From assembly GCA_003569365.1 (NCBI GenBank), contig BGOS01000006.1, positions 186,001 through 250,000 of the forward strand: 64,000 nt of DNA, read 5' to 3'. This DNA is from Anaerolineaceae bacterium. GTDB lineage: Bacteria; Chloroflexota; Anaerolineae; Anaerolineales; UBA11657. Under the pieces are notes generated by a model. The model saw only the letters and a program-made list of their open reading frames with translations. It made no database searches and was not told the origin of the DNA. Shown here piece by piece: positions 11,917-58,756 of the stretch (the stretch's first letter is position 1; every line of letters begins with the position of its first letter). Both the position numbers and the translations under genes were made by a program.

Positions 11917-12016
11917 TCTCTCATCTACCAGAATAATCTGCCGGACTTAGCACCTTGTATTTCACAGGTTGCCGAGGTTTCACAGGGCCGGACCCTCCAC
12001 CTCTCTGGATAAGAAT
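11917..12016 (-). promoter_or_regulatory. SAM-I (S-box) riboswitch aptamer upstream of metK
   Basis: The minus strand carries the S-box conserved core in order: CTTATCCAGAGAGGTGGAGG, the GAAACCTCGGCAACC segment, GGTGCTAAGTCCGGCAGA, and closing GATGAGAG. P1 pairs CTTATC with GATGAG. An intrinsic terminator follows before metK. Binding of SAM should favour termination and repress metK; this is established for the class. Confidence 0.95.
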
Positions 12017-53871: not shown

Positions 53872-53891
53872 AGTTTTGATTGCGATATATT
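53863..53891 (+). promoter_or_regulatory. sigma70-type promoter of the MerR-peroxiredoxin operon
   Basis: GTGACA (53863-53868) and TATATT (53886-53891) are 17 bases apart, each one base off consensus. The predicted start is near 53898, which is the GTG chosen as start codon, so the mRNA may be leaderless. Confidence 0.65.
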
Positions 53892-53897
53892 CCGCGG

Positions 53898-54767
53898 GTG
53901 GACTTCCAGCATGGTCAATCCAGCGGGCGCTTGCCCCACTACAATGTGAAAGCAGTTGCCAATCTGGTGGGAATTGCTCCGGTTACTTTGCGAGCGTGGG
54001 AGCGGCGCTACGGCCTGCCGACACCGCTGCGCGGCAGCCAAGGATACAGGCTTTACTCGGATCACGATGTGCGCACGCTGCTTTGGCTGAAGGCCCGCAC
54101 TGCTGAGGGCATGTCCATCAGCCGGGCTGCTGAGCAGCTACTGCACATGCGTAGCACTGGCGCGGACCCGGCTGGCGATGCCGCACTGGTTGAACGCCGG
54201 GAAGGCGCATTGTTGCTTGCCGGCATGCCGGCACCCGGTCTCACACTGCATGACGCGCATGGGGAGCCGGTGGAACTTGCATCCATGTGGGGCACGTCAA
54301 ACATTGTTATCAGCCTCATGCGCCATTTTGGCTGCATCTTTTGCCGCGAGTGGCTGCACAAGCTGGAGACCTGTGTGCCGGCACTGCGGGCTGCCAATAT
54401 CCTTCCAATCGTAGTGGGGCTGGGAGACACCGACCATGCACTGCCCGTTGCGTCACAACTGGCTCCCAGCGCACTGTGCCTGATGTCGCAGGGCGCCAAT
54501 GCCCACTTCACTTACGGACTAAAACGCGGCAGCCTCTTGCAATTGGCGGGGCCCGCGGTAATTTCTTCCGTGGTGCGCGCGGCACGCTCCGGCCAGATGC
54601 AGGGTGAAACCACGGGGGACATATCCATGCTCAGTGGCGTCTTTGCCATCGATATGGCCGGCATGGTGCGCTATTCATTTTACGGAAGCCACGCCGGTGA
54701 TCATCCGTCGCCCGACACATTCGTCGCTACGGTGCGCAGCGCCTTTCAAGCAGCCCAGCCCGCCTGA
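53898..54767 (+). CDS. MerR-type DNA-binding domain fused to a peroxiredoxin-like (AhpC/TSA_2) domain
   Basis: 289 residues from GTG 53898. Residues about 12-80 form a MerR winged helix of the CarH/BldC kind (TLRAWERRYGLPTP; GYRLYSDHDVRTLLWL). Residues about 105-285 form a thioredoxin-fold domain with the redox motif FGCIFCREW (C146 and C149). The cobalamin or effector domain usual after this DNA-binding part is replaced by the redox domain. It likely senses peroxide or thiol state and controls its own operon, including the paralogous candidate selenoprotein gene 10 bases downstream (inference). Confidence 0.82.
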   Translation: MDFQHGQSSGRLPHYNVKAVANLVGIAPVTLRAWERRYGLPTPLRGSQGYRLYSDHDVRTLLWLKARTAEGMSISRAAEQLLHMRSTGADPAGDAALVERREGALLLAGMPAPGLTLHDAHGEPVELASMWGTSNIVISLMRHFGCIFCREWLHKLETCVPALRAANILPIVVGLGDTDHALPVASQLAPSALCLMSQGANAHFTYGLKRGSLLQLAGPAVISSVVRAARSGQMQGETTGDISMLSGVFAIDMAGMVRYSFYGSHAGDHPSPDTFVATVRSAFQAAQPA

Positions 54768-54777
54768 CCCAAACACA

Positions 54778-55359
54778 ATGACTGAATTAAAATATACGAG
54801 CGCGGATTCCCTGCGAGTTGGGAGCGTTGCGCCCAGTCTCACCTTGCTGGATGCTGCGGGCGCGCCCGCCGTGCTTTCGGAGCTGTGGGCGGCGGGTCCG
54901 CTGTTGCTTACATTTTTGCGTCACTTTGGCTGAATATTCTGCCGCGAGTGGCTGGCCCAGTTGGGCCGGCATCAAGCCGAAATCGAAGCCGCCGGCCTGC
55001 GCGTGGTCGCCGTCGGCATTGGCGAACCAAAGCATGCCCAACATTTCTGCCCAACCTTAGCGCCGCACGCAACGTGCATTTCCCTGCCAGAGCCGCTGGC
55101 ACACCACGCTTACGGGCTGCGGGTGGCGTCGCTTTCAAACCTGGTGAATGTGCAAACTCTTAAACACGGGTGGCGCGCCATGCGCGAAGGGCACATGCAA
55201 ACCCGGGCCACTGGCGACGAGCGGCAGCTCGGCGGCACCTTTGTGGTCTCCCGTTCGGGCATTGTGGAGTTCGCTCAAGTTAGCGCTATTGCCGGCGATC
55301 ATGCGGATATTCCAACCGTGCTTGCCGCGCATCGGGCGTGGGAAGCGCACAACTTGTGA
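54778..55359 (+). CDS. candidate selenoprotein: peroxiredoxin-like (AhpC/TSA_2, SelL-like) with UxxC motif
   Basis: 193 residues if TGA at 54931-54933 is read as selenocysteine (Sec52). The frame is intact before and for 142 codons after the TGA. The TGA falls exactly at the first Cys of the motif FG(C)IFCREW seen in the upstream paralogue, giving U-I-F-C. A SECIS-like hairpin follows at 54951-54970. Later segments (LVNVQTLKHGWRAMREG; ERQLGGTFVVSRSGIVEF) match the family. It has no clear ribosome site and is likely translated after the regulator gene. If the TGA is a true stop, only 51 residues are made. Confidence 0.78.
54951..54970 (+). promoter_or_regulatory. bacterial SECIS-like hairpin
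   Basis: GCTGGCCC pairs with GGGCCGGC (8 bp, one G-U) around the loop AGTT, with G as the second loop base. The loop begins 25 bases after the TGA, in the range known for bacterial SECIS elements. The Cys paralogue upstream lacks this hairpin at the equal place. Confidence 0.72.
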
Positions 55360-55562: not shown

Positions 55563-56759
55563 ATGAATAAACGCTTAATTCCAATCTTTTTGGTTGTATT
55601 TATAGATTTGGTGGGCTTTGGAATAATCATCCCGTTGCTGCCTACTTTTGCAACTTCGTTCGGCGCCAGTCCGCTTGCAATCGGGCTGCTAACCGCATCG
55701 TATTCGGCGATGCAGCTGATTGGTGCGCCAGTGCTGGGCCGGTTGTCCGACCGCTTTGGCCGCAAGCCGCTCCTGATCATTTCGCAGTTGGGCACCTTTG
55801 CGGGCTTTGTGCTGATGGGTTTTGCAAACAGCCTGGCGATGCTGTTTGCCGCAAGAATTTTGGATGGCTTCACCGGCGGCAACCTGTCCATCGCGCAGGC
55901 AGCCATTGCAGATGTGACCGAAGAAAAAGACCGCGCCAAATCCTACGGATTGATTGGCGCTGCATTTGGGCTGGGCTTCATTCTGGGACCAGCGATTGGC
56001 GGGCTGCTTTCGCGCTGGGGCAACTCCGTGCCGGCGTTTGCCGCAGCAGCAATTTCCGCCGGCTCGATTGCACTGACGATTGCATTGCTGCCAGAGACGC
56101 GCCAGGCCAGCGCCGCGCCCGTCGCGCGGCGCGCTTTTACGCTGGCTGCGCTGCGCCAAACCCTTTCTAACTCGGTGCTAACGCGCCTGCTGGGCTACGG
56201 CCTTGTGTTCAATATCGGCTTTGCAATTTTCCAAACCACCTTCGCGTTGTTTGCCAAAGAAAAGTTTGGCTTCAATGTGGAACAAACCGGCTACATGCTT
56301 GGCTACGTGGGCATTCTGGTTGTCATTGCACAGGTGGTGATTCTGCCGCGCATGGTAAAGCTTGTGGGCGAGCAGCGCCTGATTTTTCTTGGCTCGGCCA
56401 CGCTTGGGCTGGGGCTGCTGGGTGTGGGCATGCTTACGCCATGGTGGGCGCTTTTTGGCACGCTGATGCTCACGGCCTTCGGCGGCGGAGTGGTGAATCC
56501 CTCGCTTCAGAGCCTTTACACGCGCACGGTCAGTGCAGAAGAACGCGGTGGCGTGCTGGGCTTGTCCGCATCGGTGGATGCCTTTTCGCGCATCGTTGCA
56601 CCCATTTGGGGCGGCTGGATCCTGGGCGTGGCGGGCGCAGCTTGGCCGGCACTGAGCGGTGCACTGCTCATGCTGATCGTGCTCATCTACGGTGCGGCGG
56701 CGCTGGGCGGGGCAGCTGCCGGAGTGCCGGCTGCACAGGAGGCTGCGGTTCTGCCGTGA
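55563..56759 (+). CDS. MFS transporter, TetA/multidrug type
   Basis: 398 residues, 12 membrane helices. Motif A GRLSDRFGRKPLLI between helices 2 and 3 and the antiporter motif C-like region GAAFGLGFILGPAIGG fit drug:proton antiporters of the TCR/Tet group. The start is at ATG 55563 with a TGAGG site upstream. Its stop overlaps the next gene (GTGA). Confidence 0.9.
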   Translation: MNKRLIPIFLVVFIDLVGFGIIIPLLPTFATSFGASPLAIGLLTASYSAMQLIGAPVLGRLSDRFGRKPLLIISQLGTFAGFVLMGFANSLAMLFAARILDGFTGGNLSIAQAAIADVTEEKDRAKSYGLIGAAFGLGFILGPAIGGLLSRWGNSVPAFAAAAISAGSIALTIALLPETRQASAAPVARRAFTLAALRQTLSNSVLTRLLGYGLVFNIGFAIFQTTFALFAKEKFGFNVEQTGYMLGYVGILVVIAQVVILPRMVKLVGEQRLIFLGSATLGLGLLGVGMLTPWWALFGTLMLTAFGGGVVNPSLQSLYTRTVSAEERGGVLGLSASVDAFSRIVAPIWGGWILGVAGAAWPALSGALLMLIVLIYGAAALGGAAAGVPAAQEAAVLP

Positions 56760-57196
56760 TTTTTGATTACGCCTTTACTGTGCGCGCGTCACTGGCTGCA
56801 GTGGCAGACTTTCACCACGATGCGCGCGCGCTGAAGCTGCTTTCACCGCCGCCAATTGTGGTGCAGCTGCATTTGGTGGAGCCCATGGCCAATGGCTCGA
56901 TTGCGGAGTTCACACTTTGGTTTGGCCCGCTGCCGGTGCGCTGGCGCGCTGTGCACAGCCAGGTGGCGGCGCAGCGCGGCTTTACAGACACGCAAGCGCG
57001 CGGCCCGCTGCGCGCGTGGCAGCACACGCACAGCTTTGACGAGGTTGCCGGCGGCGTGCGCGTGCAAGAGCATGTGGAATACGAGCACGACAGCGGCTGG
57101 CGCGGCGTGCTGAGCCGCTTGCTCTTCAACCCGCCCGCGCTGGGCTTTCTGTTTTGGTACCGGGGCTGGGCCACGCGCCGCGCGCTGGAGAAATGA
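56756..57196 (+). CDS. SRPBCC (polyketide cyclase/START-like) protein
   Basis: 146 residues starting with GTG 56756, overlapping the MFS stop; AGGAGG lies about 12 bases upstream. The pattern of a ligand-binding helix-grip fold (FTVRASLAAVADFHHDARAL; QEHVEYEHDSGWRGVLSRLL; LFNPPALGFLFWYR) fits coenzyme Q-binding/START proteins in Chloroflexota and cyanobacteria. It likely binds a lipid or pigment. Confidence 0.7.
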   Translation: MIFDYAFTVRASLAAVADFHHDARALKLLSPPPIVVQLHLVEPMANGSIAEFTLWFGPLPVRWRAVHSQVAAQRGFTDTQARGPLRAWQHTHSFDEVAGGVRVQEHVEYEHDSGWRGVLSRLLFNPPALGFLFWYRGWATRRALEK

Positions 57197-57211: not shown

Positions 57212-58756
57212 ATGCGTAGCGCAGACGGCCGCCGCATTGTAGTGGTCGGCGCCGGTGTCGGCGGCCTCACCACGGCTGCACTCCTCGCGCGCAGCGGCTA
57301 TCAGGTTACGGTGCTCGAGGCGCACGTATATGCTGGCGGCTGTGCCGGCACCTTCTATCACAAGGGCTATCGCTTTGATTCGGGCGCTACGCTGGCCGGC
57401 GGATTTTCCGGTGGCGGGCCGCACGCCCAGGTGGCAGCTGCGCTGGACCTGCAATGGCCAGTGAGCCCGGTGGATCCGGCCTGGGTGGTGCACTTGCCCG
57501 GGCGCACCGTAACGCAATGGGCTGATGCCGAACGCTGGCGGGCCGAAAGCGAAGCTGCGTTTCCGGGCAGTGCCGGGTTTTGGCGCGCGCAAGAACAACT
57601 CGCCGATGTATCGTGGGATATTGCGTCACGGCCATTCCCATGGCCGCCAGAAAGCGCGCGCGACTTGTTTACTGTGGCAGCCGCGTTGCGGCCGCGCACA
57701 CTGCTGGCGCTGCCGCACTTGCTGCGCACGGTGGCGCAGCTGGCCAGTGCGCACGGAGCCAGCACAGAGCTGCGCACCTTCCTGGATGCGCAGCTGCTGA
57801 TTGCCGCGCAAACTGTAAGCCGCAATGCGCATGCGCTGTACGGCAGTGCCGCACTGGATTTGCCGCGGCGCGGCGTGAACCATGTGCACGGCGGCATCGG
57901 TGCGCTGGCCACAACTCTGGCAGACTGGCTGCGCGCCAATGGCGGCGAAGTGTTGTATCGCCAAACGGTGGAAAAAATTGAGGTGCGCAGCGGCAGCGCG
58001 GTTGCCGTGCACACCAGCCAGGGCTTGCGCGTGCCATGCGATTACCTGGTGGCCAACCTCACGCCATGGTCATTGCGGGAATTGCTGGGAGCGCAGGCGC
58101 CCGCCGCACTGACGCGCGAAGTGCAGCGGCGGCCAGCCACATGGGGCGCCTTCACGCTGTACCTTGGCCTTGATGCGCAGGCACTGCCAGCCGGCCTGGC
58201 AGACCACCATCAAGTGGTGGTGGACGCCAGCCAGCCGCTGGGCGAGGGCAACTCTGTTTTTGTTTCACTCTCTGCTGCGGGGGATGCGCGCCGCGCGCCA
58301 GCGGGCATGCGCGCCGCCACCCTTTCCACGCACACCGCAATTGCGCCATGGTGGCAGCTGCACAATGCCGGTGGCAGCGCTTATGCAGACCGCAAGGCAG
58401 CCTACACTGCGCAGCTGCTGGCAGCGGCCGAGCGCGCCGTGCCCGGCATTGGGCGCGCCACGCGCCTTTGCCTGGCCGGCACACCGCTCACATTTGAGTT
58501 TTACACCGGGCGGGCGCAGGGCATGGTTGGCGGCTTTGCGCAAACATCGCTCTTCAATGTGCGCGGGCCGCACACCGGGCTGGCCAACGCCTGGCTGGTG
58601 GGCGACTCGGTGTTCCCGGGACAATCCACCGCGGGAGTTACACTGGGCGGCATGCGCGTGGCGCGCGCCGTCATGACGGCAGCCGGCCCGGCAACCAGGC
58701 AGCTGCCGCAAAGCAAGCAGACAGCTGCCGGCTTGCACGCCACTTCCGCGCAGTAA
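57212..58756 (+). CDS. FAD-dependent oxidoreductase, phytoene desaturase (CrtI/CrtD) family
   Basis: 514 residues. FAD-binding VVVGAGVGGLTTAALLARSG and the CrtI-type E-x3-GG segment (LEAHVYAGGCAGTF) are present; the C-terminal motif GDSVFPGQSTAGVTLGGMRV matches the family. Members desaturate or isomerise carotenoids, but many Chloroflexota copies are uncharacterised. No other crt gene is here; an SRPBCC protein precedes it and a protein of unknown family follows. Confidence 0.85.
   Translation: MRSADGRRIVVVGAGVGGLTTAALLARSGYQVTVLEAHVYAGGCAGTFYHKGYRFDSGATLAGGFSGGGPHAQVAAALDLQWPVSPVDPAWVVHLPGRTVTQWADAERWRAESEAAFPGSAGFWRAQEQLADVSWDIASRPFPWPPESARDLFTVAAALRPRTLLALPHLLRTVAQLASAHGASTELRTFLDAQLLIAAQTVSRNAHALYGSAALDLPRRGVNHVHGGIGALATTLADWLRANGGEVLYRQTVEKIEVRSGSAVAVHTSQGLRVPCDYLVANLTPWSLRELLGAQAPAALTREVQRRPATWGAFTLYLGLDAQALPAGLADHHQVVVDASQPLGEGNSVFVSLSAAGDARRAPAGMRAATLSTHTAIAPWWQLHNAGGSAYADRKAAYTAQLLAAAERAVPGIGRATRLCLAGTPLTFEFYTGRAQGMVGGFAQTSLFNVRGPHTGLANAWLVGDSVFPGQSTAGVTLGGMRVARAVMTAAGPATRQLPQSKQTAAGLHATSAQ

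Follow-up and report, generated by a model that had tools for sequence, protein, structure and literature searches.

A SelL-related UxxC gene with a conserved in-frame UGA, very probably read as selenocysteine, beside a CarH-type fusion regulator in Anaerolineae

Identity of the UGA-containing gene

Is the UGA codon that interrupts a peroxiredoxin-like gene of an Anaerolineaceae bacterium, exactly at its catalytic site, read as selenocysteine (Sec) or as a stop? The window analysed here (64,000 nt of contig BGOS01000006.1) contains this gene directly downstream of a Cys-containing paralogue and upstream of a carotenoid desaturase-like gene (Table 1). The original prediction, of a candidate new selenoprotein, described one frame broken by this TGA alone and continuing for 142 codons, and translation agrees: the frame contains only two TGAs, codon 52 and the terminator (55357–55359), with 141 sense codons plus the stop downstream of the first. 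The TGA lies at the first Cys of the paralogue's FGCIFCREW, as had been proposed (HFG-U-IFCREW here versus HFGCIFCREW upstream), and a misread TGC or TGT, raised at the time as a counter-explanation, is at odds with the assembled codon, which is TGA in three congeneric genomes. The active-site stretch (FLRHFGUIFC) does not contain PxxxTxxU and hence does not conform to the typical-peroxiredoxin motif PxxxTxxC.

Table 1 Features of the SelL-related locus in the window.
Feature	Position	Strand	Details
CarH-type MerR DNA-binding domain + Cys (CxxC) SelL-related domain (paralogue)	53880..54767	+	PF13411 47.1 bits; NF052513; NF040769 93.7 bits
SelL-related UxxC selenoprotein gene (probable)	54778..55359	+	193 residues with U52; ATG start, TGA stop; matches to NF040769, PF13911 and PF00578
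In-frame TGA (U52 of the UxxC motif)	54931..54933	+	TGA kept in G001, G002, G056, G066, G012 and G050, and also found at this motif in many members of the class
C55 codon (resolving cysteine of UxxC)	54940..54942	+	Invariant in homologue alignment A3
Putative bSECIS hairpin	54951..54970	+	8-bp stem, AGUU loop, G at loop position 2, loop 25 nt after UGA
MFS transporter	55563..56759	+	PF07690 184.6 bits; occupies this position in the genus but not in L031 and L032
Small conserved protein (start approximate)	56759..57196	+	Nothing above cut-off in Pfam or NCBIfam; in L031 and L032 lies directly 3′ of the UGA gene
Carotenoid desaturase-like FAD protein (CrtD type)	57212..58756	+	TIGR02733 375 bits, below the 549.7 cut-off

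Protein family and fold

Searched against Pfam and NCBIfam with Cys placed at the TGA, the product matches NF040769 (‘SelL-related redox protein’) with 128.4 bits (curated cut-off 120) over residues 18–184, which places it in this family, and all 15 homologues tested match the same model at E < 0.001. PF13911 (AhpC-TSA_2; 36.1 bits) and PF00578 (AhpC-TSA; 33.5 bits) also pass their cut-offs, so that the proposed AhpC/TSA_2-type, SelL-like nature of the protein is upheld. In the AlphaFold model (pLDDT 90.9) U52 immediately precedes helix 53–64, a predicted placement that is the one seen in thioredoxin-fold oxidoreductases. The top fold match in the PDB is 9usa (human prostamide/PGF synthase, a CxxC peroxiredoxin-like protein; 24% identity), and further matches of the model are AhpE, Bcp and ResA.

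The PRXL2/AhpC-TSA_2 (PF13911) proteins, among which vertebrate SelU is counted, include prostamide/PGF synthase; the product resembles them in its PF13911 score and in having a CxxC member as closest structure, but it is bacterial, identity is only 24%, and the resemblance does not imply that it shares the substrate of the eukaryotic enzymes. SelL selenoproteins, described from aquatic animals and bacteria, have a UxxU motif and form a diselenide. Like SelL, the product has a peroxiredoxin-like fold and a motif that begins with Sec, but its UxxC motif has a single Sec and can form no diselenide, and the product is thus not a SelL in the strict (UxxU) sense. Two-Sec (UxxU, SelL-type) homologues with TGA at both motif positions were observed at four loci within the same order (L042, L046, L047 and L049). 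With the NF040769 family it has in common the near full-length match above cut-off, the thioredoxin fold and U/CxxC at the equivalent place; it differs in having UGA-encoded Sec first and in its carotenoid/CarH-type setting, although the model may already include Sec-containing members. Peroxiredoxin-like thiol:disulfide oxidoreductase selenoproteins (PF00578; UxxC or UxxU) are catalogued in the tables of PMC13188914 and PMC9312934, and domain, motif and Sec count fit here, as likened by catalogue entry and not by the sequence of the representative WP_010940744.1. The bacterial AhpC/TSA-type selenoprotein in a review's list carries UxxS, not UxxC. What stands of the ‘new selenoprotein’ is therefore that a Sec-containing member has been newly recorded; the family was already named and UxxC peroxiredoxin-like selenoproteins already catalogued, and the product is a Sec-containing member of NF040769 rather than the founder of a new selenoprotein family.

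A candidate bSECIS element

The hairpin downstream of the TGA (20 nt; GCTGGCCC-AGTT-GGGCCGGC) starts 17 nt after this codon, and folding reproduced the stem, loop and distances originally proposed. The published bSECIS model comprises a loop of 3–9 nt with G in its first two positions, a stem of 4–16 bp, a spacing of 16–37 nt and a minimum free energy (MFE) of ≤ −7.5 kcal/mol (PMC13188914). The hairpin agrees with the model in all four of these respects (4 nt with G at position 2, 8 bp, 25 nt and −16.1 kcal/mol), which answers the bSECIS check suggested with the prediction. The hairpin is missing from the equivalent place of the Cys paralogue, also as claimed (shuffle z of +0.58, versus −1.5 to −1.8 for the UGA gene). 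The z-score of the hairpin alone is unremarkable; of the 1629 TGAs in the window 172, about a tenth, have a model-conforming hairpin at ≤ −7.5 kcal/mol, and seven, target included, have one at ≤ −16.1 kcal/mol. Considered by itself, the fold stands out only moderately and constitutes weak evidence.

It is raised above chance by the TGA in homologues from many genera, by covariation of the stem and by stem codons free of differences. Across 20 UGA genes, 82.9% of stem cells are paired (63.5% when shuffled) and 31 are changed on both sides (12.2 when shuffled), and none of 500 shuffles reached the observed pairing, both-side changes or covariation score; sliding the stem register lowered pairing to 30–56%. 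Both-side changes affect six of seven stem pairs, a count also reached by 101 of the 500 shuffles. A second subset of genes (93.1% of stem cells paired) agrees in cells paired, both-side changes and covariation score but disagrees in how many pairs and pair types are counted. A one-base shift of the SECIS register, giving a 4- or 5-nt loop, occurs in some homologues. The stem codons (WLAQLGRHQ) show no base difference among three congeners, the only such nine-codon window of 122 (median 8), making the hairpin the gene's most conserved DNA.

Selenocysteine machinery in the genome

Two components of Sec decoding are encoded in the genome, SelB (310.6 bits, over cut-off) and SelD, as expected where a selenoprotein is encoded, and a complete absence of machinery, which would have spoken against the prediction, does not apply. 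In selD itself, TGA occupies the codon where Sec usually lies (CAG-U-ASK; L022:1531-1533, on G000 contig C23), the frame is otherwise intact and a hairpin of its own follows downstream; selD is thus a second selenoprotein gene in this genome. The search for the Sec genes, proposed as a check, gave a partial answer: selA is frameshifted and tRNA-Sec was not found in the assembly. Relative to G001 and G002, selA is split by a one-base deletion (L020:6610-6650, G000 contig C11, about 46650), which may be a sequencing difficulty or a recent mutation; the G001 contig breaks at the same spot, suggesting sequence that is difficult there. For tRNA-Sec, the only hits of Rfam RF01852, all scoring below the gathering threshold, were tRNA-Ser, tRNA-Leu and further tRNAs, and a TTCAA...GTTCRANTC pattern matched at chance level (5 matches, versus 8 in the reversed control). 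Neither BLAST with the G007 cluster nor a model built from eight related tRNA-Sec sequences found it in this assembly or in two congeners, while the same model did recover a contig-edge copy in G005.

These gaps could mean that Sec decoding disappeared from the lineage recently, with selA broken and selC gone, the UGA being conserved for historical reasons and the product now truncated in this species, and the one-base frameshift and the lack of tRNA-Sec from three congeneric assemblies are what such a loss would leave. However, congener G002 and G003–G007 have an intact selA, the contig break in G001 points to difficult sequence at the frameshift site, and SelD retains its in-frame TGA in an intact frame. 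Outside the genus, G004 and G007 of the same family have tRNA-Sec, and five genomes of the order carry it divergently beside tRNA-Phe, tRNA-Gly(GCC) and tRNA-Cys. None of these three is among the 40 tRNAs detected in this assembly. As tRNA-Phe and tRNA-Cys are indispensable to any cell, the stretch with the tRNA-Sec cluster is most likely missing from the assembly, and we consider recent loss of decoding very improbable.

Conservation of the UGA and selection beyond it

The closest homologues, drawn from 101 related genomes, each contain exactly one TGA, and in seven of seven close homologues, from four genera in three families, it occupies the same column of the codon alignment. Homologues sampled across the class share the motif FLRHFGU..C, most of them with TGA at this codon and a few with TGT, which is the outcome of the homologue alignment called for by the prediction; Sec is thus commoner than Cys in the branch of Anaerolineae sampled, and the in-frame UGA aligns with Cys or UGA in homologues, as is characteristic of bacterial selenoprotein genes. 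Within the genus, dN/dS among three species is 0.10–0.14 after the TGA and 0.07–0.18 before it. The two sides of the codon are under equally strong purifying selection (dN/dS about 0.1), so the region beyond it is as constrained as that preceding it.

A true premature stop in a decaying SelL-related pseudogene, which Sec-unaware annotation would report as a truncated ORF and to which the frameshifted selA might lend some credit, is refuted by dN/dS of about 0.1 across the 141 codons following the TGA in three species. Decay, here or in relatives, is also contradicted by the recurrence of this TGA in several genera, by the lack of any other stop or frameshift and by the covariation of the stem, and we regard it as highly improbable. 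Reading of TGA as Trp, Gly or Cys through a reassigned code or suppressor tRNA, which would likewise leave the frame open, has next to no probability and was rejected on TGA usage, as the UGA gene and its paralogue both terminate in TGA, only tRNA-Trp(CCA) and no TCA-anticodon tRNA was found, the genome has SelB, SelA and SelD, and the TGA stands precisely where the catalytic Cys would be.

In a tree of 37 sequences at least four Sec/Cys changes are needed. The Cys domain of the upstream paralogue falls next to UGA genes from another family (support 86/77), within a mostly Sec clade, a position which suggests, but does not prove, that its Cys replaced a Sec. A plasmid search returned distant relatives only (<30% identity), and no paper naming the Anaerolineae branch was found in a search of open-licence literature.

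The CarH-type fusion and the gene neighbourhood

The paralogue ends 10 nt upstream of the ATG of the UGA gene. Its CarH match (NF052513) covers the HTH part only and its NF040769 score is below cut-off, the SelL-related CxxC domain standing where CarH has its B12-binding half. The fusion is conserved in L058:545-1432 and L059:3091-3951 and, among 396 genomes of the class, is found at full length in the window's genus only; G138, considered as a fusion outside the genus, was rejected, its frame having no MerR fusion. Congener G002 retains a complete CarH-like gene just upstream. The fusion is possibly a thiol-redox-sensing transcription regulator. A sensor-effector pair, in which a CarH-type repressor would have exchanged its B12 light half for a Cys version of the selenoenzyme's redox domain, bringing the locus from control by light and B12 under that of thiol redox state, while the Sec twin performs the chemistry or passes oxidation on to the regulator, is conceivable, though we think it rather unlikely.

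In two genomes of another family, a CarH-like regulator (MerR plus B12-binding) is followed by the UGA gene, the small protein and a CrtD-like gene; the UGA gene precedes the CrtD-like carotenoid desaturase in L031 and L032, and in G050 a CarH-like gene lies ahead of the UGA gene. UGA-containing SelL-related genes behind CarH-like MerR plus B12-binding regulators were seen at L032:299-2052, L034:509-1980, L059:1973-4549 and L031 (minus strand). This arrangement is a possible light- or B12-controlled selenoenzyme locus. In the stretches read around the UGA homologues of other families no carotenoid or CarH-type neighbours were present, and the link is thus not general; the carotenoid-desaturase/CarH-type setting, together with the fusion, is the more unusual aspect of the locus. 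Elsewhere in the window, a SAM riboswitch was observed at 11918–12015 on the minus strand (RF00162, 84.8 bits).

Proposed mechanism and role

The conserved TGA, purifying selection after it, the co-varying bSECIS, selB and the UGA-containing selD together support the original proposal of Sec insertion, which is slightly weakened by the absence of selC from the assembly and the frameshift in selA there. From these features we infer that the UGA is very probably decoded by SECIS-dependent Sec insertion, giving a UxxC oxidoreductase of the SelL-related family. The hairpin would act as a bacterial SECIS at which SelB delivers Sec-tRNA instead of termination, while the terminal TGA, which has no SECIS element, would stop translation. 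Judging by fold and motif, U52, at the N-terminus of helix α1, would be the attacking selenolate, resolved by C55 as a selenenylsulfide and re-reduced by cellular thiols or thioredoxin. As read from fold, motif and neighbours, the protein probably serves to reduce peroxides or disulfides during oxidative stress, perhaps photo-oxidative given that the UGA gene adjoins carotenoid and CarH-type regulator genes.

Significance

Gene calling that treats TGA as a stop, as is standard, would truncate the SelL-related gene described here. Its recognition adds a well-supported Sec branch, in Anaerolineae, to the SelL-related family, and with the HTH-redox fusion beside it the locus offers a natural comparison of Sec and Cys in one domain within one genome. 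That a selenoenzyme gene lies among carotenoid and CarH-type genes suggests a role in photo-oxidative stress.
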